The notes beneath the pieces were generated by a model. The model did no database searches. It saw only the letters and a program-made list of their open reading frames with translations, and had not been told where the DNA came from. The position numbers were made by a program, and so were the translations under genes. From the NCBI GenBank assembly GCA_012960345.1, contig DUBL01000050.1, positions 1 to 35,502 on the forward strand: 35,502 nt of DNA. The letters run 5' to 3'. The stretch is from Gammaproteobacteria bacterium. GTDB lineage: Bacteria; Pseudomonadota; Gammaproteobacteria; Arenicellales; UBA868. Shown in pieces: positions 2 to 29,693 of this stretch (positions are counted from its first letter, which is position 1; the number at the start of each line of letters is the position of its first letter).

Positions 2-109
2 GGGTGTGATCGATGTTACCGGCGTCGCCATTGTTCAAACCAATGCATGGCGCGTATCGACGTGAGCAAGGTTGTTGCCGTGGTGAAGCAGGTTCTGGGG
101 GCTGCTTAA
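2..109 (+). other. Possible 3' end of a plus-strand gene, unidentified
   Basis: A reading frame open from the window edge ends in TAA at 107-109 with the C-terminus ARIDVSKVVAVVKQVLGAA. Its stop overlaps the trkH stop on the other strand (106-108), which would make a tight convergent pair. The last 20 or so codons look coding-like, but the part before about base 46 (Cys- and Arg-rich) does not. Over that stretch frame 3 looks better (GVIDVTGVAIVQTN) and then stops at 63-65. One gene tail broken by a single-base deletion near 43-50 would fit both. I do not recognise the family. Confidence 0.3.
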
Positions 110-1557
110 CTTCGCCAGAAGGCTGGCGTCAGTAGGACCAGCAGCGTGAATAGCTCAAGTCGACCCATCAACATCGCGCCGCTGAGAATCCACTTTCCCG
201 CTGGATCGATTGAGGCATAGTTTTTGGCCACAGCGCCAAGTCCTGGGCCTAGATTGTTTAGACAGGCTGTGACCGCTGAGAATGCGGTTAATGGATCAGC
301 ACCCGTTGCGGTCATCGCTAGTGACAGTACTAGGTAACTAAAAATGTAGAGTGCAAAAAACCCCCAGATCGCATTGATGACATTGTCCGGTACGGGTTTG
401 CCGCCGAGTTTGATGGGGAAAAAGGCACTGGGGTGAATCAATTGGTTAATCTCTCTTCGCCCCTGTTTGTAGAGCAAAATCATACGGATTACTTTGACAC
501 CTCCAGCGGTGGAACCCGCGCATCCGCCGATGCCGCTCATCATGATCAGCAATACAGGCAGTAAAGAAGGCCACCAATGAAATCCAGAGGTGGTGAAGCC
601 GGTGGTGGTTCCGATCGAAATCACCTGGAAGACCCCATGCCAGAGGGTGGTGGTGGCGTCACTAAATGTATTCGTCGACCACAGTACGCCACAGGTGAGC
701 ACTGTGACGAAAAGAAGAAACCCAAGGAAAACGCGAACCTCAGTATCTTGCAGGTAAACAAGGAAGTTACGCTGCCTGAGGGCAAGGAAATGCAACGCAA
801 AATTCATTCCGGCCGCAATCATGAAGAGAGAAGCAATGGCAGCAATTAAGGGGCTGTCGAAGAAGCCGATGCTGAGATCATGCGTTGAAAATCCGCCAAT
901 AGCGACGGTGGAGAAACTGTGACCGATAGCATCAAATACGGTCATACCCGCCAGCCAGTAACCTATTGCACAGGCAACTGTGAGTCCCAGGTAGATATAC
1001 CATAGGGCCTTAGCCGTTTCAGTAATGCGCGGTGTTAGTTTGGAATTCTTTATTGGGCCTGGTGTTTCAGCCCGATAAAGTTGCATGCCGCCAATGCCCA
1101 GCATGGGCATGACAGCGACCGCCAGCACGACGATGCCCATGCCTCCTAACCATTGGAGTTGCTGGCGATAGTAACGAACCGAGATCGGAAGGTCATCGAT
1201 ACCTACAAGGACTGTGGCGCCCGTAGTGGTGAGTCCTGACATAGATTCGAAAAACGCATCGGTTAGGCTCATTGCCGGATTGTTGGACAGAAACAGTGGC
1301 AGTGCGCCGAAGCTTGCCAGCACCGTCCAGAACAGGACCACGATTAGAAAACCATCGCGCAGTCTGAGGTCTCGCCCCTGATGTCGCGTTGGTAGGTAAC
1401 AAGCGAGCCCCGTAGCAAGGGTTACAAGATAGGCTACTAGGAATGCGGTGGTGGTGTTGTCTGAATAGATAAGCGACAACGCCAATGGTGGCAGAAGGCT
1501 GGTGCTGAAGAGTGCTAACAGTATTCCAAGAATATTTAGGATGATCTGGAGGCGCAC
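106..1557 (-). CDS. trkH: Trk potassium uptake protein, membrane subunit TrkH
   Basis: This is the potassium-translocating inner-membrane subunit of the Trk system, which takes up K+ with the cytoplasmic gating protein TrkA. At 483 residues it has the family's usual length. Four pore-loop repeats are visible, each with a selectivity-filter-like motif: TTTGAT at about 110-115, TVAIGGFS at 217-224, TTTGFT at 317-322 and NNLGPG at 434-439. Hydrophobic helices run along the whole chain, including the N-terminal LGILLALFSTSLLPPLAL. The conserved GCAGSTAGGVKVIR segment after the third loop (about residue 345) is present. The gene follows trkA by 19 bases on the same strand, so the two are almost certainly cotranscribed. 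The stop codon overlaps a possible convergent frame. Confidence 0.96.
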   Translation of the reverse strand: MRLQIILNILGILLALFSTSLLPPLALSLIYSDNTTTAFLVAYLVTLATGLACYLPTRHQGRDLRLRDGFLIVVLFWTVLASFGALPLFLSNNPAMSLTDAFFESMSGLTTTGATVLVGIDDLPISVRYYRQQLQWLGGMGIVVLAVAVMPMLGIGGMQLYRAETPGPIKNSKLTPRITETAKALWYIYLGLTVACAIGYWLAGMTVFDAIGHSFSTVAIGGFSTHDLSIGFFDSPLIAAIASLFMIAAGMNFALHFLALRQRNFLVYLQDTEVRVFLGFLLFVTVLTCGVLWSTNTFSDATTTLWHGVFQVISIGTTTGFTTSGFHWWPSLLPVLLIMMSGIGGCAGSTAGGVKVIRMILLYKQGRREINQLIHPSAFFPIKLGGKPVPDNVINAIWGFFALYIFSYLVLSLAMTATGADPLTAFSAVTACLNNLGPGLGAVAKNYASIDPAGKWILSGAMLMGRLELFTLLVLLTPAFWRS

Positions 1558-1576: not shown

Positions 1577-2953
1577 TTAGATAAAGGTTGCAGCGACCTG
1601 AAACAAGCGTTCCACTTCGGGAATGCGTTGTTTGTCGATCACAAAGACGATGACATGATCTTCTGCTTCGATCACGGTACTTCCCTTAGCGATAATGACA
1701 TCGTCTCCACGCACGAGGGCGCTTAGCGTGGTTCCCGGTGGCAACGAAATTTCGTCTATGCGGCGTCCCACCACCTGGGATGTTGCCGGGTCACCATGGG
1801 CGATAGCCTCGATCGCTTCGGCGGCACCTCGTCGGAGGGAGTGGACTGCAACCATGTCGCCTCGTCGGATATGGGTAAGCAGCGTTCCAACGGTTGCCAG
1901 TTGCGGCGAGATCGCAACATCCAGGACGCTACTCTCAATCAAGTCAACGTAGGCGGATCGGCTCACTAGCGCAATAGCGTGTTTTGCACCCAGGCGTTTC
2001 GCCAGCATGCCCGACAAAATATTGGCTTCATCCGCATTGGTTAATGCACAGAAGACTTCTGTCTGGTCAATATTCTCCTGCCAGAGAAGTTCTTGGTCAG
2101 CGGCATCGCCGTGCAGCACGACAGTGTCTTCCAGAAGATTAGCGACCTCCCGGATTCGTTCGGGGTTGCGCTCGATGAGTTTGACCCGATAATCGTTGTC
2201 TTCTAGCGTGCGGGCGAGACGCAGTCCGATATTGCCAGCGCCGGCGAGAATGACCCGGCGACCCGGGGTTTCGACACTGCGTAACTCGCTCATGACTTCG
2301 CGAATATGGGCTTTGGCCGCGATAAAGAAGACCTCATCATCAGGTTCAATGATTGTCTCGCCCAGTGGAATGATAGGACGATCATGCCGGTACACTGCGG
2401 CGACCCGGGTATTAATCATCGGCAGGTGTTTGCGCAGATCCCGCAGTTCGTGGCCAACCAGCGGGCCACCAAAGTAGGCACGGACTCCGACCAGTTGAAT
2501 TCGTCCGCCGGCGAATTCTACTACTTGCAGTGCACCAGGGTTTTCGATCAAGGCCAGAATCTGCTGTGTAATGATCTGCTCAGGACTGATAATGAAATCA
2601 ATCGGAATAGATTCGTTACAGAAAATTTCGGGATGTGTAAGATATTCAGTCGCACGAATGCGAGCAATCTTTTTGGGCGTTCTGTAGAGGGTGTGAGCAA
2701 TTTGGCAGGCTGCCATATTGACCTCGTCATGATCCGTGACGGCCAGGAGCAGATCTGCATCTTCAATGCCTGCCTGCTCGAGGATGTTGGGATGAGGGCC
2801 GTTTCCGATGATCGTACGGATATCGAGTCGGTCCTGCAGACCCTCTAATTGATTTGGGTTGCGATCAATCAGCGTGATATCGTTGGCTTCGAGTGACAAG
2901 ATTTCAGCCATCGATGTGCCAACTTGGCCAGCGCCGAGAATAACGATTTTCAT
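1577..2953 (-). CDS. trkA: Trk potassium uptake protein, NAD-binding subunit TrkA
   Basis: This is the peripheral cytoplasmic subunit that binds nucleotide and gates TrkH. Its 458 residues show the expected duplicated layout: Rossmann/RCK_N with GAGQVG at 7-12 and an acidic strand end (LID, D30), a TrkA_C domain around 140-220, a second RCK_N with GAGNIG at 238-243, and a second TrkA_C from about 375 to the end. The two glycine motifs are intact in both halves, as in enterobacterial TrkA. It lies 36 bases after the ntrX-like gene and 19 bases before trkH. The ntrY-ntrX-trkA order is seen in many proteobacteria. Confidence 0.97.
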   Translation of the reverse strand: MKIVILGAGQVGTSMAEILSLEANDITLIDRNPNQLEGLQDRLDIRTIIGNGPHPNILEQAGIEDADLLLAVTDHDEVNMAACQIAHTLYRTPKKIARIRATEYLTHPEIFCNESIPIDFIISPEQIITQQILALIENPGALQVVEFAGGRIQLVGVRAYFGGPLVGHELRDLRKHLPMINTRVAAVYRHDRPIIPLGETIIEPDDEVFFIAAKAHIREVMSELRSVETPGRRVILAGAGNIGLRLARTLEDNDYRVKLIERNPERIREVANLLEDTVVLHGDAADQELLWQENIDQTEVFCALTNADEANILSGMLAKRLGAKHAIALVSRSAYVDLIESSVLDVAISPQLATVGTLLTHIRRGDMVAVHSLRRGAAEAIEAIAHGDPATSQVVGRRIDEISLPPGTTLSALVRGDDVIIAKGSTVIEAEDHVIVFVIDKQRIPEVERLFQVAATFI

Positions 2954-2989: not shown

Positions 2990-4375
2990 TCAGATATGTT
3001 CGGTGAGGGTTCGTGGGGCGCGTGGATCGATACCGAGACCCTTGAGTTTTCGATACAGGTGGGTTCGTTCCATCCCAGATCGACGGGCCAGTTCCGAAAT
3101 GCTGCCACCGGCGGCACCCAGATGGTGACGGAAATAGGCTTGTTCAAAAGCCTCTCGAGCTTCTCGTAGCGGTTGGTCAAGACCAACGTCCGGCCGGTGC
3201 GCTACCGTTTCCTTACCCGTATTTGTGTCTCCGAGGGAAAATCTGAGTTCGGCCAATTCAATATCCCCTGCATTGGCGCTGATCAGTAGTCGTTGGACGA
3301 TGTTTCGAAGTTCGCGAACATTGCCAGGCCAGCGCTGATTTCGAAGATGATTAAGTGCCGCTGTTGAAAATCGTCGAAAGGGTAGTTGCCATTGAGCGAT
3401 AATGGAGTGAACGAAAAAGTCCACGAGATCAGGTACGTCTTCCAGGTGCTCCCGCAACGGGGCAACCGTTATCGGGACGACGTTTAGGCGGTAATAAAGA
3501 TCTTTTCGGAAAGTGCCGTTTCGAGTTTTGGCTTCAAGGTTGTGATGGGTCGTGGCTATGATGCGCAGATCCATCTCTACCCGGTCTTTTCCACCGAGTC
3601 GGAAAAAATGATTTTCCTCCAAAGCGCTGACTAGAGTGCCTTGAAGCGTCAGGTCAAGATCGCCGACTTCGTCTAGAACGAGGGTTCCGCCGTTTGCCTT
3701 TTCGAAATGTCCAGGCGTTAGTCCGTTGCCGGTTTCACGACCAAATAGTTCGGTGGCAATGTTCTCGGAAGGAATCGCGGCTAGGTTGGCCTCAACGTAC
3801 GGGCCGGAACCACGTGTGCTGTGTTGATGAATAGCTCGACTGGTCACGCCTTTCCCAGCGCCGGCCTCACCGTTAACCATGATCCAACTCAGGGTTGGTG
3901 CCACGCGTTGGATATCGTCCCGCAGCGTACGGATCAGTGGACTGTGACCCACCAGCGTGCTGTTGAACCCGGATTGGTCTCGCAACAGGGAGTTTTCGAT
4001 CTTCAACTGACGCGTTTCTAGGGCTTTTGCTATCGTCACCAGCAAGCGGGCGGTGGATAATGGTTTTTCCAGGAAATCCTCAGCCCCAGAGTGCAGGGCC
4101 TCGACTGCGGAATCGACTGTGCCGTGACCGGACATCATGATGACCGGTGGCAAGGCCCCACGGTCGGCCCAACGCTGGAGTAGTGTGATGCCATCGACGT
4201 CGGGCATCCAGATGTCAAGGAGTACCAGATCGGGTTGGCCTGTGTTGTATTCCGCCTCGGCCTGCACTGCATTACCCGCGAGGGTAACCTGATAACCTTC
4301 GTCATCGAGAATATCAGCCACAACCTGGCGGATATCTGGTTCGTCGTCAACGACAAGTATGTGTTTTGCGCTCAA
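2990..4375 (-). CDS. ntrX: NtrX-like response regulator (AAA+, Fis-type HTH) without GAFTGA loop
   Basis: This is a two-component transcription regulator paired with the kinase encoded 7 bases upstream. Domains of the 461 residues: receiver 1-120 with D10/D11, phospho-acceptor D54 and K104; AAA+ domain about 140-370 with a Walker A variant GEAGAGKG (K175) and Walker B TLVLDEVGDL (D235, E236); and a Fis-type helix-turn-helix at about 423-450 (SISELARRSGMERTHLYRKL). The GAFTGA loop that contacts sigma-54 is absent. After ELFGRE the sequence goes TGNGLTPGHFEKANGG, shorter than in canonical activators. From family knowledge, some NtrX proteins also lack this loop and act with sigma-70. Nitrogen control should therefore not be assumed. 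The gene order (rsmB, DUF4390, kinase, this gene, trkA) supports NtrX over NtrC or AlgB. Confidence 0.88.
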   Translation of the reverse strand: MSAKHILVVDDEPDIRQVVADILDDEGYQVTLAGNAVQAEAEYNTGQPDLVLLDIWMPDVDGITLLQRWADRGALPPVIMMSGHGTVDSAVEALHSGAEDFLEKPLSTARLLVTIAKALETRQLKIENSLLRDQSGFNSTLVGHSPLIRTLRDDIQRVAPTLSWIMVNGEAGAGKGVTSRAIHQHSTRGSGPYVEANLAAIPSENIATELFGRETGNGLTPGHFEKANGGTLVLDEVGDLDLTLQGTLVSALEENHFFRLGGKDRVEMDLRIIATTHHNLEAKTRNGTFRKDLYYRLNVVPITVAPLREHLEDVPDLVDFFVHSIIAQWQLPFRRFSTAALNHLRNQRWPGNVRELRNIVQRLLISANAGDIELAELRFSLGDTNTGKETVAHRPDVGLDQPLREAREAFEQAYFRHHLGAAGGSISELARRSGMERTHLYRKLKGLGIDPRAPRTLTEHI

Positions 4376-4382
4376 GTGATCT

Positions 4383-6623
4383 TCAATGGGATGAGGCGGT
4401 GTTTGTGATCCCCTCCAGAGGTCCGGTGGGTTTCGTATCTAAGCTTACCGGCAGTTGGATTATAACGAGTGCACCGCCGGCGGGATCATTTTCGGCCTGA
4501 ATCGACCCTCCTTGTTCTTCTATGATGCGCCGTGCAATGGCGAGTCCAAGGCCTGTGCCTTTTGTTTTTGTCGTGACGTAGGGGTCGAAAATACTCCCCA
4601 GTAGTTCCTGTGGGAAACCAGGTCCGGTATCTCGCACTTCCAGGGTTACAGAGCGGTCCTTGGATCGAGTCGCTTGGTGAGTACGCAGCGTCAATCGACC
4701 ATTGGGTATACCGACCATTGCATCGGCCGCATTGATCACTAGGTTATTGAGGACTTGTCGTATGCCCGCCGGGTCGATATGAACCAAGGGCACGGTGTCG
4801 TCGAGATCCAACTCAAATGTGTTGATCTTTTTGTTTTGCCGATGCAATTCAATGATGTCTTGTAGTAACCGATTCAGCTCTGTGGTAACAGGTTTCAATT
4901 GCATAGGTTGAGCATAGTGTGAAAACGCGTTGACCAACGCTTTCATCAAGTCCACTTGGGCGATAATAGTGCGGGTGGCTCGGTCCAGCGTTGCCTGATC
5001 GTCACCAGCTAGGTGTTTTAGATATTTGGCCCGAATACGTTCGGCCGATAGTTGGATGGGGGTGAGTGGGTTCTTAATTTCATGGGCCAGTCGGCGGGCG
5101 ACTTCGCCCCAGGCTGCGTCACGTTGTGCCCGAATCAGCGCGCTGACATCGTCAAATACGATGACATAACCCGACAGAGTTTCGGTGGTTTCGGGTAACC
5201 GAGTGCCTCGACAGATAAGAGTCTGGCGTCCATACGGGGAAGCGAGGACGATTTGATCCTGCCAGTCCTGGTCATTATGTTGGGTGTGGCGTGTAATTGC
5301 TGAGGACAGGGGGGCCAATTGACTGTGTGTGTCTCCTAGCGTGGTAATTGGACGTTGTTCGAAAGCGGTCAGATCAACGGCAAGAATACTTTCGGCAATG
5401 GTGTTGTGAGTGCGCAGCGTACCGTCTTTGGCCAGCGACAGTACCCCAGAGGAAAGGTGAGTGAGTACCGTCTCAAGATAAGTACGCTGGGCTTCTGTTT
5501 GCTGTTGGCTGTCAGCTGTCGCCTCTTGCGCGAGACGGATTTGGTTAGTCATCTGATTGAAGGAACTGACCAGTACGCCGAGTTCGTCGCCACTGTGCAC
5601 GGGTAACTGTTTCAGGTAGTTGCCGCTCGCTACCGCACGGGTTCCTTCGGCCAGTTCGCGCAACGGCGCCACTAGTCTTCGAGTTGAATAAATAGCTAAC
5701 CACAGTGCAATCAAAGCGGTCATTAAAGTGACCAGGGTTAATGTGATGACAAAATTTAGTTTTAACGGTTGACGCAGAAATTTGAGGCGGTTGTATTCGT
5801 CTGACGCGGATTGAACGCTCTCACCCAAACGCGAGTACCGTAGTGGCAGAGGATAGAGCCCTTGAAGCAGTCGCACTGGGTCCCCCATACGGTCGCTGAT
5901 GACGGGCACTGCAATCCGTAGTTGTAGTCCTCCGTCAAATAGTGGTTCGACCTGTGCATAAGTTTTACGTTGGCGAATACGTGCAAAGACAGTATCGTCA
6001 GGCGCGGAAGGGGTCAGCGAAATCGCATCACTACTGCTTGAAGCAATCACTCGGCCGGACAGGCTGTGCAGGCTCATCTCGGAAAAATCGCCTTCCCCTC
6101 GCAGATCCTCCAATAACTTGATTATGCCGAAGGGTGAAGTCGTTTGTGCAACTTGTGCCGCATCCCGCTGCAAGCGGATAACTACGTCAGTTTTGGTGGC
6201 TTCAAGTGAGGTTTGACCCAGCAACAGTGCATCGTCGAGTGCCTGTTCGATGCGCACATCGAACCAACTGTCCACACCACGACTGAGGAAATAAACGGAA
6301 AAATAGTAGACAAGCGATAATGGGATGATGGCAAGAAGCGCAAAGATGACGACGAAACGGAGCGCCAATCTGGCGCCCAGCACCTGCGCTCTGAACTGGC
6401 GAATCAAGCGATAGACATTGATGGCTGTCAGGGTCGTCATGATGACGATGCCGATGATATTTAGCGCAACCAAGCCTCCGTAAAAGTCACCGAGAAGTCC
6501 CTTGTTCTCGACAGCCGGCGTGAGAAGCAGTGACGCCGCGAGGAAAATGATAGACAGCCCAATTGCTGGGCCTGGCCGGAGCGCGCGACGAAAGTTCATT
6601 ATTGGACGGGCCATTCGTGCCAT
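4383..6623 (-). CDS. ntrY: NtrY-like membrane sensor histidine kinase
   Basis: This large membrane kinase (746 residues) is the likely phosphodonor for the NtrX-like regulator encoded just downstream. Visible parts: transmembrane helices at about 20-36, 48-70 and 88-112; an extracytoplasmic region of about 190 residues; a fourth helix at about 300-322; a HAMP-type linker to about 375 (RRLVAPLRELAEGTRAVASG); a PAS-like region at about 385-500; the dimerisation/phosphotransfer motif RLAHEIKNPLTP with H514; an N box (NNLVINAADAM); and G boxes DTGPGF and GTGLGLAI. The frame allows ATG codons at 6623, 6611 and 6599. The one at 6599 overlaps the TAA of the DUF4390 gene as TAATG and may be the true, translationally coupled start. 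Its stimulus cannot be read from sequence. Confidence 0.93.
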   Translation of the reverse strand: MARMARPIMNFRRALRPGPAIGLSIIFLAASLLLTPAVENKGLLGDFYGGLVALNIIGIVIMTTLTAINVYRLIRQFRAQVLGARLALRFVVIFALLAIIPLSLVYYFSVYFLSRGVDSWFDVRIEQALDDALLLGQTSLEATKTDVVIRLQRDAAQVAQTTSPFGIIKLLEDLRGEGDFSEMSLHSLSGRVIASSSSDAISLTPSAPDDTVFARIRQRKTYAQVEPLFDGGLQLRIAVPVISDRMGDPVRLLQGLYPLPLRYSRLGESVQSASDEYNRLKFLRQPLKLNFVITLTLVTLMTALIALWLAIYSTRRLVAPLRELAEGTRAVASGNYLKQLPVHSGDELGVLVSSFNQMTNQIRLAQEATADSQQQTEAQRTYLETVLTHLSSGVLSLAKDGTLRTHNTIAESILAVDLTAFEQRPITTLGDTHSQLAPLSSAITRHTQHNDQDWQDQIVLASPYGRQTLICRGTRLPETTETLSGYVIVFDDVSALIRAQRDAAWGEVARRLAHEIKNPLTPIQLSAERIRAKYLKHLAGDDQATLDRATRTIIAQVDLMKALVNAFSHYAQPMQLKPVTTELNRLLQDIIELHRQNKKINTFELDLDDTVPLVHIDPAGIRQVLNNLVINAADAMVGIPNGRLTLRTHQATRSKDRSVTLEVRDTGPGFPQELLGSIFDPYVTTKTKGTGLGLAIARRIIEEQGGSIQAENDPAGGALVIIQLPVSLDTKPTGPLEGITNTASSH

Positions 6624-7129
6624 TGGCTTTGTTCATTCCATGGCGGTAATAATGCTGATATGAGCCGTAGCGGAGCTGGTAAGGATTCCGTGTCAATGCG
6701 CGCGCGTATCCGCACGACGAGATTCTGTTTTTTCGCGATCGTGGCAGGCAAGGCTTCGATTACGCTAAATCGATCCAGTTGTCGGAGTGCTTCGCCCAGA
6801 GTGTGGAAAACCGCAGTAGATTTTTTTCTTTGGTCTGTGACAGTAAATCGACGGGACAGTGAATGATAGCTAAGTTTCACAGGGTAGCGCCATTCCAGAA
6901 ATGTTGTTGACCACGGCCACAGTTTGTTTTGCACCAGCTCAAGGTCGATACAGATAATGATGGGAATGCCATTGGCAATCGCTGTGGCAGATCGCGGATC
7001 TAGCGATAAATCTAACGTGGCATGACTGCTGAGATGTTGATCCGTTATCTGTGCGCCGCCCCCCACGATTTTGAAATCTGCAGTGGTTATGGTCGATGCC
7101 AGCAACACGGTGAACGCGAATACAAACAA
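6599..7129 (-). CDS. DUF4390 secreted/envelope protein
   Basis: This is a protein of the DUF4390 family, function unknown, usually found between rsmB and ntrY as here. After a hydrophobic segment ending near STITTA it has a beta-rich body with WPWSTTFLEWRYPVKLSYHSLSRRF and a C-terminal PAPLRLISALLPPW stretch, both typical of the family. The only ordinary start in the open frame is TTG at 7129, used here as the minimal start. That would begin inside the signal-peptide hydrophobic core and drop its positively charged n-region. A CTG at 7177, nine bases after an AGGCAGGAG Shine-Dalgarno sequence, would add MLTRALTSRKSPRILT and complete a normal signal peptide. The downstream kinase start overlaps this stop. 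Link to NtrY signalling is inferred from context only. Confidence 0.82.
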   Translation of the reverse strand: MFVFAFTVLLASTITTADFKIVGGGAQITDQHLSSHATLDLSLDPRSATAIANGIPIIICIDLELVQNKLWPWSTTFLEWRYPVKLSYHSLSRRFTVTDQRKKSTAVFHTLGEALRQLDRFSVIEALPATIAKKQNLVVRIRARIDTESLPAPLRLISALLPPWNEQSQWHEWPVQ

Positions 7130-7210: not shown

Positions 7211-8539
7211 TTATAAACCTGTTGAGGCGATTGCGTGCTGTTGATGATCGGGTCGTCGTTCAAGTCGAGCGAAATAGAAACCATCCCCCCCACCGTCACC
7301 GGGAAGCAGCTGCCAACCGCGCCGTGTCGAGCGCCCCCAGGCACTTTGTATTTTTGTGGTTTGTGCGTCGACGTGATTTGTCAGAAAACTGTCGACGACC
7401 TTGTCATTTTCTTGCTCGAGTACTGAGCAGGTCACGTAGAGTAGCCGTCCACCGGGTTTCAGAAGTGTCCACAGCGCCGATAGAAGTTTGATTTGTGTAG
7501 CGACACTCGCGGACAAATCCTCTGGTCTGCGGTGGAGGCGAATGTCGGGGTGCCGACGGATAATGCCGGCGCCGCTGCAAGGCGCATCAACCAGGATGGC
7601 ATCGAACCGTTCTCCGTCCCACCAGGCATCGGGTTGTGACGCATCGCCTGCGACCAGTACTGCCTCAACGCCTAGGCGTCTCAAATTTTGCTCGATTAGG
7701 GGAATTCGTTCAGGCAGGTCAATGGCCCACAAAGCGGCCATGTTGGGTTCTGATTCCAGTAGGTGGCACGTTTTACTCCCCGGGGCGGCACAGGCATCAA
7801 GAACGCGTTGCCCTGTCACGGGGCCAAGAAACCAAGGCATGAGCTGTGCTGCGGCATCCTGGATTGACACAAACCCTTCATCAAATCCTGGAATCTGATG
7901 CACCGGGCGAGGTCGATGTAACGTGAGCGCCGACGAACTGAGTGGTGAGATGGAAACTGGAATGCCTTCTCGACATAACTGGGTGATGTAGGCGCCCCTA
8001 GCAAGTTGCCGATGATTAACACGCAGTGTTTGCGGCGGGCGTTGATTGCTCTCAGTCGCGATTTGTTGCCATTTGTCTGGCCAACTTTGGCGAAATTCGT
8101 TGAGCAGCCAGTGCGGCGTGGCGGCATATCCGTTTTGGTCAAGGCGTTTATGTCCTCCTTGGCGTAGGTGTTTTCGAAGTACCGCATTGACCAACGATCG
8201 ATACATCGGTCGTTTCAGGTGAGTGCACGCATCGACACTGCTTGAGGTAACGGCGAAATCTGGAGCAGAATGAAACTCATACTGATAACACGCACACAAC
8301 AGTAACGCTTCGAGTACGCGGTCATTCTTGCGTAGAGGTTGATATAAAAGTTGATTAATTAGCGGTTCATAACGGAAGTACCAGCGCACCGTTCCCCAGA
8401 TAAGTTCTCTGGTTTCGGCGTGTCGAGTGGATTCAAGCTTGGCAAGTGGCTCTTGGATTGCTTTTGCCAGTGACTGACCTTGTCGTGTGACACGGTCAAT
8501 CGCACAAGCTGCTGTGGCACAGACTTCAGCGCTTGGCAT
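7211..8539 (-). CDS. rsmB: 16S rRNA (cytosine(967)-C5)-methyltransferase RsmB
   Basis: This enzyme transfers a methyl group from S-adenosylmethionine to C967 of 16S rRNA. In its 442 residues the N-terminal third is a NusB-like RNA-binding domain (about 5-135, with the conserved HAETRELIWGTVRWYFRY and PMYRSLVNAVLR). The C-terminal part is the Rossmann methyltransferase with the SAM motif VLDACAAPGSK at 246-256. The two catalytic cysteines are both present: C321 in DAPCSG and C371 in VTCSVLEQEN. Its start lies 14 bases inside the end of fmt, so the genes are translationally coupled. Its TAA (7211-7213) is in the same frame as the DUF4390 gene. Confidence 0.97.
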   Translation of the reverse strand: MPSAEVCATAACAIDRVTRQGQSLAKAIQEPLAKLESTRHAETRELIWGTVRWYFRYEPLINQLLYQPLRKNDRVLEALLLCACYQYEFHSAPDFAVTSSSVDACTHLKRPMYRSLVNAVLRKHLRQGGHKRLDQNGYAATPHWLLNEFRQSWPDKWQQIATESNQRPPQTLRVNHRQLARGAYITQLCREGIPVSISPLSSSALTLHRPRPVHQIPGFDEGFVSIQDAAAQLMPWFLGPVTGQRVLDACAAPGSKTCHLLESEPNMAALWAIDLPERIPLIEQNLRRLGVEAVLVAGDASQPDAWWDGERFDAILVDAPCSGAGIIRRHPDIRLHRRPEDLSASVATQIKLLSALWTLLKPGGRLLYVTCSVLEQENDKVVDSFLTNHVDAQTTKIQSAWGRSTRRGWQLLPGDGGGDGFYFARLERRPDHQQHAIASTGL

Positions 8540-11302: not shown

Positions 11303-12307
11303 TTGGTCAATGGGCCACCACGACTCGCTGTGGACAGTTGTTTTCGAAGCCCTTCAAGTCAGTCCTCACATCGCGCGTTAACGTTGCAATCAGCCGAACG
11401 CGACAATGTTTGGTTGAGTGGGCGAGATCGTTCGATTGTTGGGCTTAACGAAGCGTCATACCCCTTTCTTCTCAGCCAGATTCCAGATCCCCCGCTACGG
11501 TTATATGTTGAAGGCCAAGTGAGTGACTGGCTGCGGCCAGCGGTCGCTGTTGTTGGCAGTCGTAACCCAACCGCTGCTGGAGAAGAGTTCGCATTCCACC
11601 TCGCTCATGGCCTTGCCGAACACGGTATCGTTGTTGTCAGCGGGCTGGCACTCGGGATCGACAGTGCCGCCCATAAAGGCGCTATGGCGGCGGGTGGCAT
11701 GACCATCGCGGTGTGCGGAACGGGGTTGGACATTGTTTACCCCCGACAGAACCGCACTTTGGCTGATCAGATCAGGACAACTGGCGGCTTGGTGTCTGAA
11801 TTTTGTATCGGCACGGGAGTTAGGGCACATCACTTCCCGAGACGTAACCGGCTTATCAGTGGGCTGGCTTTGGGCACGGTGGTAGTTGAAGCAGGTCGTC
11901 GAAGCGGAAGTTTGATTACGGCGAGACATGCCGCGGAGCAGGGTAGGGAGGTTTTTGCAGTGCCGGGTCCGGTTTTTTCTCCATTGTCGCGGGGACCCAA
12001 TGCGCTGATTCGAGACGGTGCACGACTGGTAGAAAGCGTGTCTGATATCACTGAGGAACTTTCCTTGATTCTTCCCCGGGGCAGAAACAAAGCCATGACA
12101 ACTGAGTTAAGTTTGCAACCTATGGGGTTACTGGCTGCCATTGGAGAGGTACCGACCCCAGTAAATCAACTGATTGATCGTACTGGATTGACGGTTGCAG
12201 AGGTTTCATCCATGCTGATAACAATGGAACTAGAGGGCGTAGTCACTCGTGTAGGCGGCGGCTTTATCAGAAGGGTTGTTACGTCACAGATTCAGGATGA
12301 CGTATGA
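11303..12307 (+). CDS. dprA: DNA-processing protein DprA, N-terminus uncertain
   Basis: DprA protects incoming single-stranded DNA and loads RecA during natural transformation. The Rossmann-like core is intact: VAVVGSRNPTAAG, VVSGLALGIDSAAHKGAM, GTGLDIVYPRQN, FPRRNRLISGLA and GRRSGSLITARHAAEQGREVFAVPG. A C-terminal winged-helix domain (about 270-325) follows. The N-terminal region is abnormal. No ATG exists in this frame before the core; the options are TTG 11303, GTG 11330 or TTG 11384, none with a clear ribosome site. The first 27 residues are Ser/Arg-rich and do not resemble the family's N-terminal helical domain. Frame 3 carries an ATG (11265) overlapping the lysM stop and reads 38 codons to TAA at 11379, so a one-base deletion near 11370-11380 or a real -1 shift is possible. 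The core call is firm; the start is not. Confidence 0.88.
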   Translation: MVNGPPRLAVDSCFRSPSSQSSHRALTLQSAERDNVWLSGRDRSIVGLNEASYPFLLSQIPDPPLRLYVEGQVSDWLRPAVAVVGSRNPTAAGEEFAFHLAHGLAEHGIVVVSGLALGIDSAAHKGAMAAGGMTIAVCGTGLDIVYPRQNRTLADQIRTTGGLVSEFCIGTGVRAHHFPRRNRLISGLALGTVVVEAGRRSGSLITARHAAEQGREVFAVPGPVFSPLSRGPNALIRDGARLVESVSDITEELSLILPRGRNKAMTTELSLQPMGLLAAIGEVPTPVNQLIDRTGLTVAEVSSMLITMELEGVVTRVGGGFIRRVVTSQIQDDV

Positions 12308-12483
12308 ACTGTGGTTTCATTAATGCTGTTGGCCGATTGAAGTACGATGTTTGCCCGTCTTATCTAATTCACCAGCATGGGATCGATGCATGAAGGTGCA
12401 AATGGAAGTAATCATTTTGCTCACACGATGGGCCACCACCGACTGCGTTAGAACTTGGCCGGTTGTGAGTTGGATTGAGATTT
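12308..12483. other. Intergenic region dprA-topA
   Basis: These 176 bases hold no recognised gene. The smg/DUF494 gene often found here in gammaproteobacteria is absent. A -10-like TCTAAT (12363-12368) has no good -35 at normal spacing. A short ATG frame at 12377-12451 encodes 24 residues with five histidines (MGSMHEGANGSNHFAHTMGH and on); nothing shows it is translated. The topA promoter presumably lies here. Confidence 0.4.
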
Positions 12484-15219
12484 ATGGGTAAGTCATTAGT
12501 GATTGTAGAGTCGCCGGCCAAGGCGAAAACGATCAACAGATATCTGGGCCGTGACTTTATTGTCAAGTCAAGTGTCGGGCATGTGCGGGATTTACCGGTC
12601 AGTGGCTCAAGAAAGAAGATCGATCCAAAAGAGAGGGCAAAACAGGCGGCTAAAACACGCAAAATGGCGCCAGATGTCAAAGCAAAATACAAGAAGGAAA
12701 AAGCCCATACCAATCTTGTTAACAGTATGGGTGTAGATCCCGACAATGATTGGTGCGCGAGTTACCAAATTTTGCCGGATAAAACCAAAGTGGTAGCAGA
12801 ACTTCAAAAACTTGCGATGAACGCGGACGCGATCTATCTTGCCACAGACCTAGACCGTGAAGGGGAAGCGATCGCATGGCATCTCAAAGAAGTTATTGGT
12901 GGTGATGAAAGCCGTTATCACCGGGTTGTTTTTAACGAAATTACCAAGAAGGCGATTGAGCGGGCATTTGAGGAGCCGGGTGCTTTGAATCAGCACAAGG
13001 TCGAAGCACAGCAGACACGTCGCTTTCTGGATCGTGTGGTGGGATTCATGCTTTCTCCTTTACTGTGGGCGAAAATCGCACGCGGCCTCTCGGCCGGTAG
13101 GGTGCAGTCGGTAGCTGTTCGTTTGTTGGTGGAGCGCGAACGCGAGGTGCGTGTCTTTGTTTCTGAAGAATATTGGGAAATTTTCGCGGATACCACAGCA
13201 GGCAAGGCGGAACTGCGTTTGCAGGTGACTAAGGATCACGGAAAAAACTTCCGACCCACCAGTAAGGACGAGGCAGACGCTGCGTTGGCCCTGTTGAAGC
13301 AACACGCGTACACGGTCACCGCGCGCGAAGACAAACCGACCAAGTCCAGGCCCAATGCCCCCCTGATTACTTCTACGTTACAGCAGGCGGCGAGCACGCG
13401 ACTTGGGTTTTCTGTGAAAAAAACCATGACACTGGCCCAGCGCCTTTACGAAGCCGGGTTTATCACCTACATGCGCACAGATTCCACTAACTTGAGTATT
13501 GATGCGGTGGTCAATTGCCGTAGTTTGATTGACAAGGTTTATGGCAAGAAATACTTACCGGCTCAGCCAATTGTCTACGCCAGTAAGGAAGGTGCTCAGG
13601 AGGCCCATGAGGCAATCCGCCCAACTGATGCGTATCAGCGAGGCTCCACCATTTTGGTAGAGCGGGACCAGCAGCGTCTTTACGATCTAATTCGCGACTA
13701 TTTCCTGGCTTGCCAGATGACAGATGCACAGTATTTAAGTTCCACATTAACGGTTATGTGCGGTGAGTTTGAGCTGAGGGCCAAGGGGCGAATTCTTGTG
13801 TTTGATGGGCATACGCGTGTTTTGCCACCGGCAGGTAAGCAGGACAATGTGGAACTACCTGACTTAGAAGTGGGGCAGCTACTGTCGTTGCAGCAACTTG
13901 TCCCCAAGCAGAATTTCACTAAGCCACCGGCGAGATATACCGAAGCAAGCCTGGTAAAAGAGCTTGAGAAACGGGGCATCGGCCGACCTTCTACTTATGC
14001 ATCGATTATCTCTACGATCCAGGACCGCGGTTATGCCACCATCAACAATCGACGGTTTTTCGCTGAGAAAATTGGTGAAATCGTGACGGACCGTCTATAT
14101 GAGAATTTTAGTCATCTCATGGACTACGGATTCACGGCTGATATGGAAGAGACGTTGGATCAAATTGCTAGCGGGGGCAAGGATTGGAAGGTGGTCCTGA
14201 ATGAGTTTTATGCCGATTTTAGGCGAAAACTGGAGGCGGCGACTGGAGAGGGGGAAGGTAAAACTGCCGTAGGTGGAATGCGGACCAACTCGCCGACCAA
14301 TACGGATATTGAGTGCCAGAATTGTGGGCGTTATATGCAAATTCGTAATGGGGCTACCGGGGTTTTTCTGGGTTGCTCAGGGTATGGGCTAACACCCAAA
14401 GAACGTTGTACGAAAACCTTAAACCTCGTGCCTGGCGAAGAGATAGAAGATTCTGCTCTGGATGAGGAAGCGGAGGCTAGGTTGTTGGTTAGCAAACGCC
14501 GTTGTTCTGTTTGTCGTAGTGCGATGGAGAGTTATTTAATTGATGAAAAAAGAAAGATGCATATCTGTGGTGACAATCCAGACTGTTCCGGCTATGAAAT
14601 CGAGTGGGGACAATTCCGACTAAAAGGTTACGACGGACCGATCGTGGAATGTGACAAGTGCGGGTCAGACATGCAGTTAAAGAGCGGGCGTTTCGGAAAG
14701 TATTTTGGTTGTACCAAAGACGAATGCAAGAATACGCGGAAATTGCTACGAAACGGCGAGGCAGCGCCCCCCAAGGCGGATCCTATCCCGATGCCCCATT
14801 TGCAATGTGAGAGGGTGGATGATTTTTATCTTTTACGCGATGGTGCGTCCGGTATCTTTCTGGCGGCCAGCCAGTTCCCTAAAAATCGGGAAACACGGGC
14901 GCCATTGGTCGAAGAAATTCTGAGTGTTAAGGATCAACTTGACCCCAAGTATCAGTTCCTGGCGACGGCGCCTATTATGGATCCTGACGGAAACAAGGCA
15001 CAGATTCGTTTTAGTCGAAAAACGAAAGAACAGTATGTGTTGACTGAGATTGAAAAGAAGGCCTCGGGCTGGAAAGCGTTTTATCGTGAAGGCCAATGGA
15101 AGGTGGAGGTCAAAGAGAAAAGCAGGACAGCAGTGAAGAAGAAAACCAACACCTCGACGCGAAAGAAAAAAGCGATAGGTAAGAAGTCGGGAAAATCCAA
15201 GGCAGGCAGGCCAACTTAA
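12484..15219 (+). CDS. topA: DNA topoisomerase I (type IA)
   Basis: This enzyme relaxes negative supercoils by a single-strand passage mechanism. The Toprim domain starts [17 protein letters not shown] and carries the metal motif D122-x-D124-x-E126 ([13 protein letters not shown]). The active-site tyrosine is Y329 in [11 protein letters not shown], matching Y319 of the E. coli enzyme. Three C-terminal four-cysteine zinc-ribbon units follow (starting [18 protein letters not shown] and CDKCGSDMQ), and the chain ends in a lysine-rich tail. Total length is 911 residues, including a basic insertion near residue 45 as in gammaproteobacterial TopA. I chose the ATG at 12484, because the earlier TTG at 12475 adds only three residues before the conserved N-terminus. 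It converges on mrcA with 33 bases between stops. Confidence 0.98.
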
Positions 15220-15252
15220 TCCTTTGTCTGGGTGTTGGTTTCACAGGAATTC

Positions 15253-17628
15253 TCAGAAAAGTTTCTCCACGTTGCTTTCGGTATCATCGCGGGACGTCCG
15301 AGTGATCGGTGTGCCGACAGACAACTGTGCCTGGGGTTCGCTGCCCATCACGAAGTATTCGTCTATGCCATCGGGATCGGTTTGATCGGTGACTTGGCCT
15401 GAGTGGCGGTTAATACGTGCTACGACGATGTTTTCTGGAATGCTTGCCGGATGTATTGGTTTGTCCTTCAACGCGATCGTCATGTAGTCGATCCAGATTG
15501 GCAATGCCGCACGACTTCCTGACTCACGTCGTCCAAGTTCTTTCGGTTGGTCGAAGCCAATCCAAACACTGGCTGTGATGTCACGATTAAATCCAGTAAA
15601 CCAGGCATCGCGAAAGTTGTTGGTGGTGCCGGTCTTACCCGACAGATCCGTACGTCCTAACGACAGTGACTTACGACCCGTGCCGGTGGTCATGACTTCG
15701 TTCATTAGACTAGTCATCAAGTATGCATTCTCAGGTGAGATTGCGCGTCTCGCGTAGCGTCGGTCGCGAATTATCCCGGATCCGATTTGCACTGATGGCG
15801 ACTGATTTGGCCGACAGGCAGGGCAGAGTATGGTGTGATTTGCGTAACGCACTATCCGTCCATCACGGTTTTCAATGCGAGCAATAAAGTAGGGCTCTAT
15901 TAAGTAGCCGCCGTTAGCGAAGACTGCATAGCCCCGTGCGATTTCCATCGGTGTAGTGCTCGCGGAGCCTAGTGCGAGCGACAATCCCGTTGACAGTCGA
16001 TCTCGAGAGAACCCGAAACGCTCCAGATGATCTGTCACCAGGGGGATTCCAAGCGAACGTGTGATGCGTACGGACACTAAATTAAGTGACAGACTGAGCG
16101 CTCGTCGGAGTCGAGTAGGACCAAAGAATTTCTTGTTGTAGTTCTCGGGTTTCCAGGTGTTTCCCAGTGTGTCTTCAATAACGACTGGAGCGGCACTGAT
16201 CATGGACGCAGCTGAAAAGCCATTATCTAACGCGGCAGAATAAATGAATGGCTTTATGTTTGAACCAGGTTGCCGCAGAGCTTGCGTTACGTGATTCAGT
16301 TTATTCCGTGCGAAATCAAACCCTCCGACCAACGCAAGTACGGCACCATCGTGCGGATTGAGGGAGACCAGTGCACCGTCGATTTCTGGTCGTTGTGCCA
16401 GCAGCAGGCCGTCTAAGCTATCAATAACATAGATCAGATCACCGGGGTTCACCACCGCATCTATTGATTTCTTTGTCCAGCGCCATGAACTTGGTCCCAG
16501 AACAACTCTCTTGGTATCGGCAAGCGCCAGGCTAACCGCATCGGGTGCTACATTCAGGACAATGGCCGGGATAAGAGGTGACGGCGCGTTGGCGTTGGCA
16601 AGTGCCGTAGCAACATATGATGAGTCGACTAAGCGGGCAGTGTCCAGGGTGTTAGCGGGGCCGCGGTAACCGTGACGCCGGTCATACGCCAAAAGCCCGT
16701 GCCGAAGGGCGCGATTGGCAGCGGCCTGGTGGGTGCTGTCAATGGACGTGTAGACGCGATAGCCGTCGGTATAGGCTGCCTGCCCAAATTCTGATACCAA
16801 GCTGGAGCGCACCATTTCAGCAATATGGTGCGCATCAACCTCTGTCACCAGAAGCGACTTGCTTGCAGTCACGGGTTTCTTGGCAGTGGCCTGGTAAGTT
16901 TTTCTGTCAATATGACCGAGCGTGTACATTCGGTATAACACGTAGTTTCGGCGTTTCAGTGCACGCTCAGGATTGGTCACGGGATTATTGCGTGAGGGAG
17001 CTTTTGGCAGACCTGCGAGTACAGCTAATTGACCGAGCGACAATTGTTCTAGGGGCTTGTCGTAATAGATTGCTGCCGCAGCCGCAAATCCGTAGGCGCG
17101 GTGGCCAAGAAAGATTTTGTTTATGTAGAGTTCGAGAATTTTTTCTTTGGATAATTGCTGTTCTAATTTGATGGCCAACAGAATTTCTTTGACCTTGCGA
17201 ATATAGGTTTTCTCTCTTGAGAGAAAATAGTTCCGGGCAACCTGCATGGTGATGGTGCTTGCGCCTTGACTGATGTCTCCCGATCGGATGTTCGCAATCA
17301 GGGCGCGGGCAACGCCGGTTATGTCGATCCCGTAGTGATGAAAAAATCGGTCGTCCTCAGCAGCGGTAATGGCGTTGATCAAAGTTTTGGGAACGTGATC
17401 AATAGTCACTGGGATTCGTTTGTGATTGCCAAATTGCGCTATCAGACGACCATCGATGGTGTAGACCTCAAGCGGGACTTTCAAGCGGATATTGCGAATG
17501 TTCTCGATGGCTGGCAAATCAGACATCAGCGTCCCCACCAAAACCGTTCCCGAGATGCCCCCTGCCAGGGTTAGGAGGCCTGCCGAGATCAGGACTAGTC
17601 GAAAGAATTTTTTCAAGGGTGCCGGCAA
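15253..17628 (-). CDS. mrcA: Penicillin-binding protein 1A (class A, bifunctional)
   Basis: This inner-membrane enzyme polymerises glycan strands and cross-links the peptides of peptidoglycan. The 791 residues contain an N-terminal anchor (about 9-34). The GT51 transglycosylase has catalytic E91 in EDDRFFHHYG and the GASTITMQVARN motif at 122-132. An OB-like insert is followed by the transpeptidase with SNIK (nucleophile S456, K459), SLN (514-516) and KTG (665-667). A CPAC pair sits near residue 602 in the transpeptidase insertion. It is transcribed divergently from pilM, the ponA/pilM arrangement known from Pseudomonas and relatives. Confidence 0.97.
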   Translation of the reverse strand: MPAPLKKFFRLVLISAGLLTLAGGISGTVLVGTLMSDLPAIENIRNIRLKVPLEVYTIDGRLIAQFGNHKRIPVTIDHVPKTLINAITAAEDDRFFHHYGIDITGVARALIANIRSGDISQGASTITMQVARNYFLSREKTYIRKVKEILLAIKLEQQLSKEKILELYINKIFLGHRAYGFAAAAAIYYDKPLEQLSLGQLAVLAGLPKAPSRNNPVTNPERALKRRNYVLYRMYTLGHIDRKTYQATAKKPVTASKSLLVTEVDAHHIAEMVRSSLVSEFGQAAYTDGYRVYTSIDSTHQAAANRALRHGLLAYDRRHGYRGPANTLDTARLVDSSYVATALANANAPSPLIPAIVLNVAPDAVSLALADTKRVVLGPSSWRWTKKSIDAVVNPGDLIYVIDSLDGLLLAQRPEIDGALVSLNPHDGAVLALVGGFDFARNKLNHVTQALRQPGSNIKPFIYSAALDNGFSAASMISAAPVVIEDTLGNTWKPENYNKKFFGPTRLRRALSLSLNLVSVRITRSLGIPLVTDHLERFGFSRDRLSTGLSLALGSASTTPMEIARGYAVFANGGYLIEPYFIARIENRDGRIVRYANHTILCPACRPNQSPSVQIGSGIIRDRRYARRAISPENAYLMTSLMNEVMTTGTGRKSLSLGRTDLSGKTGTTNNFRDAWFTGFNRDITASVWIGFDQPKELGRRESGSRAALPIWIDYMTIALKDKPIHPASIPENIVVARINRHSGQVTDQTDPDGIDEYFVMGSEPQAQLSVGTPITRTSRDDTESNVEKLF

Positions 17629-17764
17629 GTATCGAGCGGGCCGCGCTGGCCGATAAGTCGGTCAGTGTATCGCCTGAATCGGTATTCTATCTGTCTAGTG
17701 GGGATGAATCCTGCCTGTTTCCGAGTTTTGATTAGCTGCGGCTTCGTGATTCGACGCGCGGTGG

Positions 17765-17793
17765 TGACAATGTGTCAGGTCGACAAGGTGTCA
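17765..17793. promoter_or_regulatory. Inverted and direct TGTCA repeats between mrcA and pilM
   Basis: A perfect inverted repeat TGACA-ATG-TGTCA lies at 17765-17777. A third TGTCA at 17789-17793 starts 16 bases after the previous one, and TGTC-AGGTC-GACA at 17773-17785 forms a second, overlapping dyad. They lie about 75-100 bases before pilM, in the 237-base divergent region, upstream of a possible -10 TATAGT at 17831-17836 that lacks a good -35. This could be an operator for pilM or mrcA; no binding protein can be named. Confidence 0.3.
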
Positions 17794-17865
17794 TCCCGTC
17801 TCCGAGGTGTGGTTTCCCCGCAAGTTTCGGTATAGTTCGGGGAATATTCAAGGTAAATTAAACCA

Positions 17866-18990
17866 GTGGCACTGTTTTCTCGAAAAGGGCGCGGTCTACC
17901 GCGTTCAGAATCGTCCGGCAAGGGTGCTAACACAGCTGACGCTAATCAACCGCGTTACAGTGCTATTGGCGTTGATATCAGTACGTCTGCCGTTAAAGTG
18001 CTTGAGATGAACCGCGGCCGAGATGGCTATAAAGCGACCCATATTGGCATCGAACCATTGCCTCGGGACGCGATCGTTGAGCGTGCAATCAGTAATCTCG
18101 ATGCGGTGGGCGAAGCACTAGCGGCCGCCCTAAAGCGGTCAAGGAGCAAGCGGAAAAACGCGATAGTTGCGGTGGCTTCGTCTCACGTTGTTACCCGAAC
18201 AATCTATCTTCCCGCCGAGTTAAGCGACAGCGAGCTTGAAGAGCAGGTTGGGCTAGAGGCAGTTCACCATATTCCCTATTCACTGGACGAGGTGAATATG
18301 GATTATCTGGTGGTGGGACCATCGCCTGCAGATCCAAATGAAAATGAAATTCTTTTGTCAGCCTGTCGGCGAGAAATTGTTGAAGATTATGCTGGCGTAG
18401 TGGCTAGCGCGGGGTTACAGCCGGTTATCATTGATGTGGATTCGTTTGCAGTAGAGCGCGCTTATTCACTAGTGACACAGGCCTTTGGTGATTCAATTCA
18501 GGGTAAAGTGATTGGGTTGTTGGATTATGGTGATACCACCACTCACCTGGACGTCTTCATAGACGGGAAAATTGTGTATAGCCGTGACCATGCGTTTGGT
18601 GGACGGATACTGACGGAAAATATCAGAACGCGCTTTGCAAGCAGTCATGAAGATGCGGAGGCCATGAAATTGGCTTCGGATCTGCCAGAAAACTATCTGA
18701 CTGATCTACTGGAGCCGTTCAAGGCATCGATGGCGCAAGAAGCTAACCGTGCGATTGAGTTCTTTGCTTCCTCTAGTCGCAGTAACGAAGGGGTCGACGC
18801 AATTTTCCTCACCGGTGGCTGCGCTGCAATCGATGGTGCCACAGATGTTATTCAGCAGGTGACCGGTTTTGACACGTTTGTTGCCAATCCATTTGCAGGC
18901 AGTGAGTCGCGCGGCAAGAGTCAATCGCTGGGTCGTCAGACACCATTGTTATTTAAGGCTTGCGGATTGGCAATGCGAGGTGCCGGGTGA
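17866..18990 (+). CDS. pilM: Type IV pilus inner-membrane assembly protein PilM
   Basis: PilM is a cytoplasmic actin-like ATP-binding protein that docks onto the N-terminus of PilN, linking the cytoplasmic and periplasmic parts of the pilus machine. The 374 residues show the actin/FtsA-like phosphate-1 motif GVDISTSAVKVLEM at about 34, a second phosphate loop in the LLDYGDTTTHLDVFIDG region, and the adenosine-type motif FLTGGCAAIDG near 305. The start is a GTG at 17866. Its TGA overlaps the GTG of pilN (GTGA). It is the first gene of pilMNOPQ. Confidence 0.95.
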   Translation: MALFSRKGRGLPRSESSGKGANTADANQPRYSAIGVDISTSAVKVLEMNRGRDGYKATHIGIEPLPRDAIVERAISNLDAVGEALAAALKRSRSKRKNAIVAVASSHVVTRTIYLPAELSDSELEEQVGLEAVHHIPYSLDEVNMDYLVVGPSPADPNENEILLSACRREIVEDYAGVVASAGLQPVIIDVDSFAVERAYSLVTQAFGDSIQGKVIGLLDYGDTTTHLDVFIDGKIVYSRDHAFGGRILTENIRTRFASSHEDAEAMKLASDLPENYLTDLLEPFKASMAQEANRAIEFFASSSRSNEGVDAIFLTGGCAAIDGATDVIQQVTGFDTFVANPFAGSESRGKSQSLGRQTPLLFKACGLAMRGAG

Positions 18991-28000: not shown

Positions 28001-29673
28001 ATGCCAATGAACTTCAGATCAAGATCGCGCAGGGGGCAAAGCCCGGGGAGGGTGGGGAACTGCCAGGATCGAAAGTGGATGACACGATTTCTCGTATCCG
28101 CTATTCAACACCCGGGGTCGGGTTGATCAGTCCGCCACCCCATCATGACATTTATTCAATCGAAGATCTCGCGCAACTGATTTACGACCTCAAGAATGCG
28201 AACCCGTCGGCGCGTATTAGCGTTAAGTTGGTTGCGGAGGTTGGAGTTGGCACGATAGCAGCTGGTGTTGCCAAGGCGCACGCCGACCATATTTTGATTT
28301 CAGGTGATAGCGGTGGAACAGGCGCATCGCCACTCACCAGCATTAAGCATGCCGGTCTTCCCTGGGAGTTGGGAATTGCGGAGACTCACCAGACTTTGGT
28401 GATGAATGACCTACGCAGCCGGGTTGTGCTGCAGACCGACGGTGGCATGAAGACAGGTCGTGATGTGGTGGTTGGTGCACTCCTAGGGGCAGAGGAGATT
28501 GGTTTTTCTACCGCGCCGTTAATCGCTCTTGGGTGCATCATGATGAGAAAATGCCATCTTAATACCTGTCCTGTGGGGATTGCGACTCAGGATCCCGAAT
28601 TACGTGCGAAGTTTGCCGGTCAACCGGAAGACGTTGTTAATTATCTGTTTTTGGTTGCAGAGGATACGCGCAGTCTGATGGCAGAGTTGGGGTTTCGCGC
28701 TTTTGATGAAATGGTGGGCCGAGCTGACGTGCTGGATTCCAGCACCGCGATAAAGCATTGGAAGGCAGATGGCATCGATCTGTCACCATTATTGCTACCG
28801 GCGGCTGAACTTAATGGGACGGCCACTCAGTACTGTCAGATTAACCAGGACCACGGGTTGCAGCACAGCCTGGATCAGGTCGTGTTGCTGGAACGTTGCC
28901 GTCCTGCGCTCGACCAGGGAGAGAAAGTGTGCCTTGATTTGTCAATAAAAAATACCAACCGAGCGGTGGGCACGATGTTGGGACACGAGATCATGAAGCG
29001 ATGGGGTGAGTCAGGTTTGCCGGACAACACGATTCAGCTGCGATTTCAGGGCTCTGCAGGGCAGAGTTTCTGTGCGTGGTTGCCCCCGGGTGTGACGGCA
29101 GTGCTTGAAGGTGATGCCAATGATTATGTAGGTAAGGGGTTATCGGGCGGGCGCATTGTGACTTACCCTCCTAACAACAGCACTTTTTTGGCGCAGGACA
29201 ATATTCTGGTCGGTAATGTGGTGTTGTACGGCGCAACGGGTGGCCAAGCCTTTTTTCGAGGGCGTGCCGCCGAGCGTTTTTGTATTCGAAACAGCGGTGC
29301 ATCGGCTGTGGTTGAAGGTGTGGGTGATCATGGCTGTGAATACATGACTGGTGGTCGAGTAGTTATTCTTGGTCCCACGGGTCGCAATTTTGCCGCAGGT
29401 ATGTCCGGTGGAATCGCTTACGTGTGGGCGCCTGAACCGGATATGTTCCGGTCGCGTTGCAATTTGGAGATGGTAGAGTTAGAACGCGTTCACGACGGTG
29501 AGGATATCGCTGAGTTGGCCACGCTGTTGTCGCTACATGCCCATTATACAAATTCACCCGTTGCACTTAATCTGATCGAACAGGGAGAGGAAATCCTGTG
29601 TAATGAGTTTGTCAAAGTGATGCCGATTGACTACAAGCGCGCACTGGCTAAGCAGGCCGCTGGATCCCGGTAG
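25048..29673 (+). CDS. gltB: Glutamate synthase (NADPH) large subunit
   Basis: The large subunit transfers the amide nitrogen of glutamine to 2-oxoglutarate, giving two glutamates. Of up to 1541 residues, the class II glutamine amidotransferase domain begins at the mature N-terminal cysteine in EHDSCGVGF (C46 from this start, after a removable propeptide), with TGDGAGML nearby. The central domain, the FMN-binding synthase domain (about 880-1250) and a GXGXG beta-helix domain follow. The 3Fe-4S cysteines are C1163, C1169 and C1174 ([12 protein letters not shown]). Starts at GTG 25048, ATG 25084 or ATG 25099 are possible; none has a strong ribosome site, and all keep the propeptide cysteine. 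It lies 20 bases before gltD. Confidence 0.98.
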
Positions 29674-29693
29674 TAATCAGGACAATCAACGGA

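Follow-up and report, generated by a model that had tools for sequence, protein, structure and literature searches.

NtrX response regulators are often annotated as sigma-54 activators. The ntrX gene described here lies in a stretch of 35,502 nucleotides (the window; contig DUBL01000050.1 of the gammaproteobacterial assembly GCA_012960345.1) and raises the question of how such a regulator would work when its AAA+ domain has no GAFTGA loop, the element that contacts region I of sigma-54 (PMC7175178). A preliminary description of the sequence had reported the loop as lost and the receiver and Fis-type domains as intact, and Pfam searches agreed on both domains. The open reading frame begins with a TTG codon, and the encoded protein contains SENIATELFGRETGNGLTPGHFEKANGGTLVLDEVG; its features and those of the neighboring genes are collected in Table 1.

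Table 1. Features of the ntrX locus (positions in the window)
Feature	Position	Strand	Evidence
ntrX, NtrX-type response regulator, 461 aa, REC-AAA+-Fis HTH, no GAFTGA loop	2990..4375	-	Pfam Response_reg, Sigma54_activat, AAA_lid_14, HTH_8
Receiver domain, PF00072, residues 6-115; phospho-acceptor D54 at 4214-4216	4031..4360	-	
AAA+ core, residues 141-302	3470..3955	-	PF00158, 159 bits
Walker A GEAGAGKG, Lys175 present	3848..3871	-	
Shortened L1 segment ELFGRETGNGLTPGH, replacing a 20-residue GAFTGA-bearing segment (ELFGRE..GH)	3707..3751	-	
Walker B GTLVLDEVG (D235, E236)	3662..3688	-	
Arginine-finger segment FRKDLYYRL, both Arg present	3485..3511	-	
Sensor II GNVREL	3308..3325	-	
Fis-type HTH, residues 407-445	3041..3157	-	PF02954, 25.2 bits (cut-off 22)
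ntrY, sensor kinase (NtrY_N, HAMP, HisKA, HATPase)	4383..6623	-	NtrY_N, 27.1 bits (cut-off 23.2)
DUF4390 protein (PlrP-like)	6599..7129	-	PF14334, 102 bits
rsmB	7211..8539	-	
trkA	1577..2953	-	
trkH	106..1557	-	

As in other members of the NtrX family, a receiver with a phosphorylatable aspartate (D54) was combined with an AAA+ domain and a Fis-type HTH, and a gene for an NtrY-type kinase lay adjacent. The best NCBIfam model was NF051870 (NtrX), with 452 bits compared to 344 bits for the next family. This score misses the curated cut-off of 600 bits; gene order and tree, rather than membership in the NF051870 equivalog, are the grounds on which the protein is filed as a gamma/beta-type NtrX. 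The genes around it followed the order rsmB-DUF4390-ntrY-ntrX-trkA-trkH, with def and fmt further upstream on the same strand. The DUF4390 gene is called plrP in Bordetella, and the rsmB-plrP-ntrY-ntrX-trkAH cluster is known from beta- and gammaproteobacteria (PMC13001219). Among 321 sampled genomes of the window's class, DUF4390 was present in 211 and an NtrX match (E ≤ 1e-85) in 190. Elsewhere in the window (11303-18990, 20897-23140 and 25048-32976), Pfam identified ordinary chromosomal genes, namely, dprA, topA, a class A penicillin-binding protein gene, pilM, a secretin gene, the glutamate synthase gene, and hemE.

Both by sequence and by fold, the best solved structures were those of Brucella abortus NtrX, determined with ATP and with ADP (5m7n, 5m7o, and 5m7p; E of 8e-104; Z of 36.6 to 37.6 across 424 to 429 residues, with a whole-chain rmsd of about 11 Å). 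The Brucella protein shares the REC-AAA+-HTH order and a loopless L1 of nearly equal length; however, it is only about 42 to 45% identical and alphaproteobacterial, and among our sequences the NF051870 cut-off was passed by alpha-type rows alone. Further fold matches (FleQ, FlrC, LuxO, VpsR, etc.) reflected the common AAA+ fold and nothing more.

The L1 segment, counted from E209 to the residue preceding FEK, comprised 15 residues, whereas that of the NtrC-type paralogue encoded in the same genome comprised 20 and included GAFTGA (ELFGHERGAFTGADAQRHGR). No displaced GAFTGA was found anywhere in the 461 residues, and the loss reported in the preliminary description thus held. Alignment with NtrC1 (1ny5) left a gap at L1, and alignment with Brucella NtrX (5m7n) left a gap of one residue. 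In the AlphaFold2 model (mean pLDDT of 88.5), the L1 region formed a tight beta-hairpin (residues 213 to 220, strands 213 to 215 and 218 to 220) within blocks with a pLDDT of 90 to 94. Three orthologues from the same genus, 91 to 94% identical, had the 15-residue segment too, so the short L1 is no sequencing slip; a displaced motif or a frameshift as its cause was excluded by the open reading frame and by the alignments with congeners and paralogue. The protein thus lacks the GAFTGA motif by which sigma-54 activators (bEBPs) are recognized and resembles the loopless NtrC-type regulators, in which the L1 loop is deleted and the remaining domains are retained.

Whether the whole lineage shares this loss, a point that the preliminary description had raised, was addressed with an alignment of 281 rows: the window protein, 215 further rows from its class, 37 alpha-type rows, 14 f42-f73 rows, nine f44 rows, and five NtrC paralogues. 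The alpha-type rows were those above the NF051870 cut-off, and their alphaproteobacterial assignment is inferred from that model. Duplicates of the window gene and of NtrC (L002, L008, and L209), contig-end fragments (L288, L290, and L296), and two AAA-less proteins (L289 and L292) were left out. GAF.GA occurred in none of the 216 class rows and in none of the 37 alpha-type rows, in 1 of the 14 f42-f73 rows, in all nine f44 rows, and in four of the five NtrC paralogues, rows that are not independent, since the two genome collections may contain identical species. The loss is thus common to the lineage. Of the 216 class rows, 186 had an L1 segment of 15 residues (range in the class, 5 to 16); the segment measured 16 to 20 residues in the alpha type and 20 in f44. 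The loop of the f44 proteins (L193 to L201 and L277 to L279) mostly read GAFPGA or GAFSGA; GAFTGA proper was present in two of the nine rows. We take the f44 proteins, which we guess to be from Zetaproteobacteria, as true NtrX counterparts because the order NtrY-NtrX-TrkA-TrkH was found in all three loci checked and both proteins scanned scored best with the NtrX model.

A tree of 124 rows (representatives at 68% identity, loop columns removed; quick search with SH-aLRT support only) placed the 120 NtrX rows in one clade apart from the four NtrC rows (support, 99). It split into three parts, with the alpha-type rows in one (99), those of the window's class in another (99), and f44 together with f42-f73 in the third (92, not starred). 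The window protein grouped with family f1 and relatives from its own order. Since both the outgroup and f44 have the loop, its presence early in NtrX and later loss is the simplest reading of these sequences. The branching order of the three parts was not resolved, and either one or two events would fit the loss in the alpha and window-class proteins.

A genome search for rpoN, suggested in the preliminary description, returned a complete-looking gene (446 aa with both sigma-54 domains), and the genome content is thus compatible with work through sigma-54. Contig C4 (L285:2859-6780) carried glnA, an NtrB-type kinase gene, and the gene for the GAFTGA-bearing NtrC, with gene names assigned from sequence. 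This NtrC matches the window NtrX in domain order and catalytic residues but differs in its loop, in its glnA-ntrB-ntrC locus, and in sequence (about 35% identity). Sigma-54 is probably in use in this genome and served by NtrC.

For its part, NtrX was found to persist where rpoN was undetectable, which makes the sigma-54-independent role proposed earlier likely. Thus, in two genomes of the window's order (G036, 92% complete, and G046, 88% complete; one genus and hence one lineage), rpoN was not found by PF04552 or PF04963, and the only PF00158 protein at E ≤ 1e-20 was NtrX, loopless and with intact Walker motifs. Two alpha-type genomes, G139 and G239, likewise had no rpoN match and NtrX as their only PF00158 protein. 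Among NtrX-positive f60 genomes, 11 of 14 lacked rpoN, all 11 with two to four further PF00158 proteins. Not every genome with NtrX and without rpoN was counted as evidence. In the set of relatives, such genomes were G036, G046, G001, G024, and G027 (the last three 60 to 70% complete and not used), and G059, which is 99% complete and was omitted because it has a GAFAGA protein. In the class sample, 9 of the 190 NtrX-positive genomes, read by eye, had no PF04552 match (G395, G439, G524, G532, G533, G541, G557, G600, and G651); seven of them were tested with PF04963 and gave no match, and of these, six had 6 to 10 PF00158 proteins and G395 had three, with GAFTGA in the one read per genome, so that their missing rpoN is more probably explained by incomplete drafts. 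As for f44, rpoN was present in 57 of 58 NtrX-positive genomes (compared by eye; the one genome without it, G329, has a completeness of 57%), which counts as a single contrast, f44 being one clade with the loop present where read.

The state of the ATP site was scored from six residues: the Walker A Lys, the Walker B Asp and Glu, the two Arg of FRxDLYxRL, and the sensor II Arg. All six have catalytic roles in this ATPase family. The Walker A motif had previously been called nonstandard, although with its Lys and the Walker B Asp and Glu kept. The latter observation stands, and damage to Walker A is rejected for this protein, since GEAGAGKG fits G-x4-GK and all six residues are present; Walker A and B, the arginine fingers, and sensor II are therefore as in bEBPs. 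The site appears undamaged as far as the residues tell and, with all six in place, the protein is as likely to use ATP as to be simply a DNA binder. The complete set was found in five of five NtrC, 8 of 9 f44, 9 of 14 f42-f73, 34 of 37 alpha-type, and 23 of 25 f1 rows (the last including the window protein); among the 191 class rows outside f1, only 21 had it (4 of 6 f1 representatives versus 13 of 95 others). In those 191 rows, the Walker A Lys was missing from 53, the Walker B Asp from 100, and the second finger Arg from 152, and the tree requires at least 11 changes for the Walker A Lys and at least 24 for the Walker B pair. Two f16 genomes encoded NtrX proteins of 223 and 232 aa with the receiver and HTH but no AAA+ domain, in conserved gene order. 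Eleven loci were fetched from genomes with DUF4390 and no strong NtrX match: four held full-length, divergent, loopless NtrX, two held the AAA-less proteins, and five were cut or ended before NtrX. The phosphorylatable Asp was kept in all 281 aligned rows. The ATPase has thus decayed repeatedly elsewhere in the window's class, with the AAA+ domain absent altogether in one family (f16).

Loss of the loop in NtrX and NtrC relatives, mentioned in the preliminary description, is indeed in print: for NtrX of Caulobacter (PMC10274813) and Thioalkalivibrio (PMC5744179, Table 2) and for NtrC of Rhodobacter capsulatus and Caulobacter. The last two resemble our protein as NtrC-family regulators with GAFTGA deleted, but their losses are in NtrC and of other sizes, whereas the paralogous NtrC of the window genome retains the motif. 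Loopless NtrC proteins act at sigma-70 promoters, that of R. capsulatus through ATP binding, while that of Caulobacter needs the residues for both binding and hydrolysis (PMC10274813). Sinorhizobium meliloti NtrX is phosphorylated at D53 and binds DNA directly when phosphorylated (PMC9223101), and Rhodobacter sphaeroides NtrX was reported as an activator and perhaps a repressor (PMC7240162).

We consider it probable that the window protein belongs to the gamma/beta type of NtrX, acts within an NtrYX system (the PlrP-NtrY-NtrX cluster), and is a phosphorylation-controlled regulator of sigma-70-type promoters which does not open sigma-54 promoters in the usual way and probably still uses ATP. 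NtrY would phosphorylate D54, as the domains and gene order suggest, and phosphorylation would alter oligomerization and DNA binding through the Fis-type HTH. NtrX could then activate or repress sigma-70-type promoters by contact or by site occupancy. The usual sigma-54 power stroke would not be expected, because a short hairpin replaces the GAFTGA loop that contacts sigma-54. Binding of ATP, and perhaps its hydrolysis, probably still controls assembly, since the ATP site in the window's family looks intact; this would be as reported for the loopless NtrC proteins of R. capsulatus and Caulobacter.

Alternatively, the protein might be a phosphorylation-controlled DNA binder whose AAA+ domain acts as a scaffold and nothing more, with ATP having no role and the domain on its way out, a reading that we hold less likely. 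The frequent lack of the Walker A Lys, the Walker B Asp, and the second finger Arg outside f1 speaks for it, as do the AAA-less proteins of f16 with their conserved synteny. The NtrX (PlrR) of betaproteobacteria, which shares the rsmB-plrP(DUF4390)-NtrY-NtrX-trkAH cluster with our locus, is also said to be without AAA+ (PMC13001219), in contrast to the complete domain found here. However, a mere scaffold would not need the six residues that f1 retains almost throughout, and dN/dS values among four congeners (0.17 overall; 0.13 for the receiver, 0.18 for the AAA+ core, 0.12 for the lid, and 0.11 for the HTH) indicate purifying selection on both the AAA+ core and the lid; the 0.32 obtained for the 21 codons around L1 comes from too few codons to weigh.

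That NtrX still serves sigma-54 in an unusual way, through contact by the short hairpin or in mixed oligomers with the GAFTGA-bearing NtrC, appears improbable. Such partners do exist in the window genome, and sigma-54 flagellar genes have been reported as activated in connection with a loopless Caulobacter NtrC whose DNA binding was lost (PMC12421884), so that the absence of GAFTGA alone is not proof against work with sigma-54. Against it stand G036 and G046, which keep NtrX with neither a detectable rpoN nor another PF00158 protein. An error of sequencing or assembly, or a pseudogene in decay, might be suspected in a draft of 309 contigs, but this is refuted by the orthologues, by an L1 that is short in every one of the 216 class rows, and by an open frame under the selection just described, leaving it a negligible chance.

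The NtrX family might in turn record how a sigma-54 activator was converted step by step into an ordinary regulator, a tentative idea that we rate as possible but somewhat short of even. The series would run from f44, with the loop intact, through f42-f73, with the loop eroded but near full length, to the alpha type and f1, with the loop gone and the ATPase kept; ATPase residues would then have been lost many times, and f16 would have lost the AAA+ domain. The window's family would represent a step where sigma-70 promoters are regulated by means of ATP binding or hydrolysis, without contact with sigma-54. In the open literature searched, we found no account of the family-wide distribution of the loop, of its retention in f44, of the uneven ATPase decay, or of retention without rpoN; subscription papers, e.g., Fernandez 2017 on NtrX structure, may contain part of this. 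According to our data, annotating NtrX as a sigma-54 activator is not safe across an entire branch of Proteobacteria. Natural intermediates for studying the change from an ATP-driven sigma-54 activator to a sigma-70 regulator, and the remaining function of the AAA+ domain, are offered by f44, f1, and f16.

Two minor observations concern the ATP domain in other genomes. Among the 216 class rows, 44 had Arg in place of the Walker A Lys (found among L038 to L117 and other rows), several of them from records named Chromatiales, Sedimenticola, or Thiodiazotropha. The AAA-less NtrX genes were located at approximately L289:2961-3630 and L292:2997-3690, downstream of NtrY and DUF4390.
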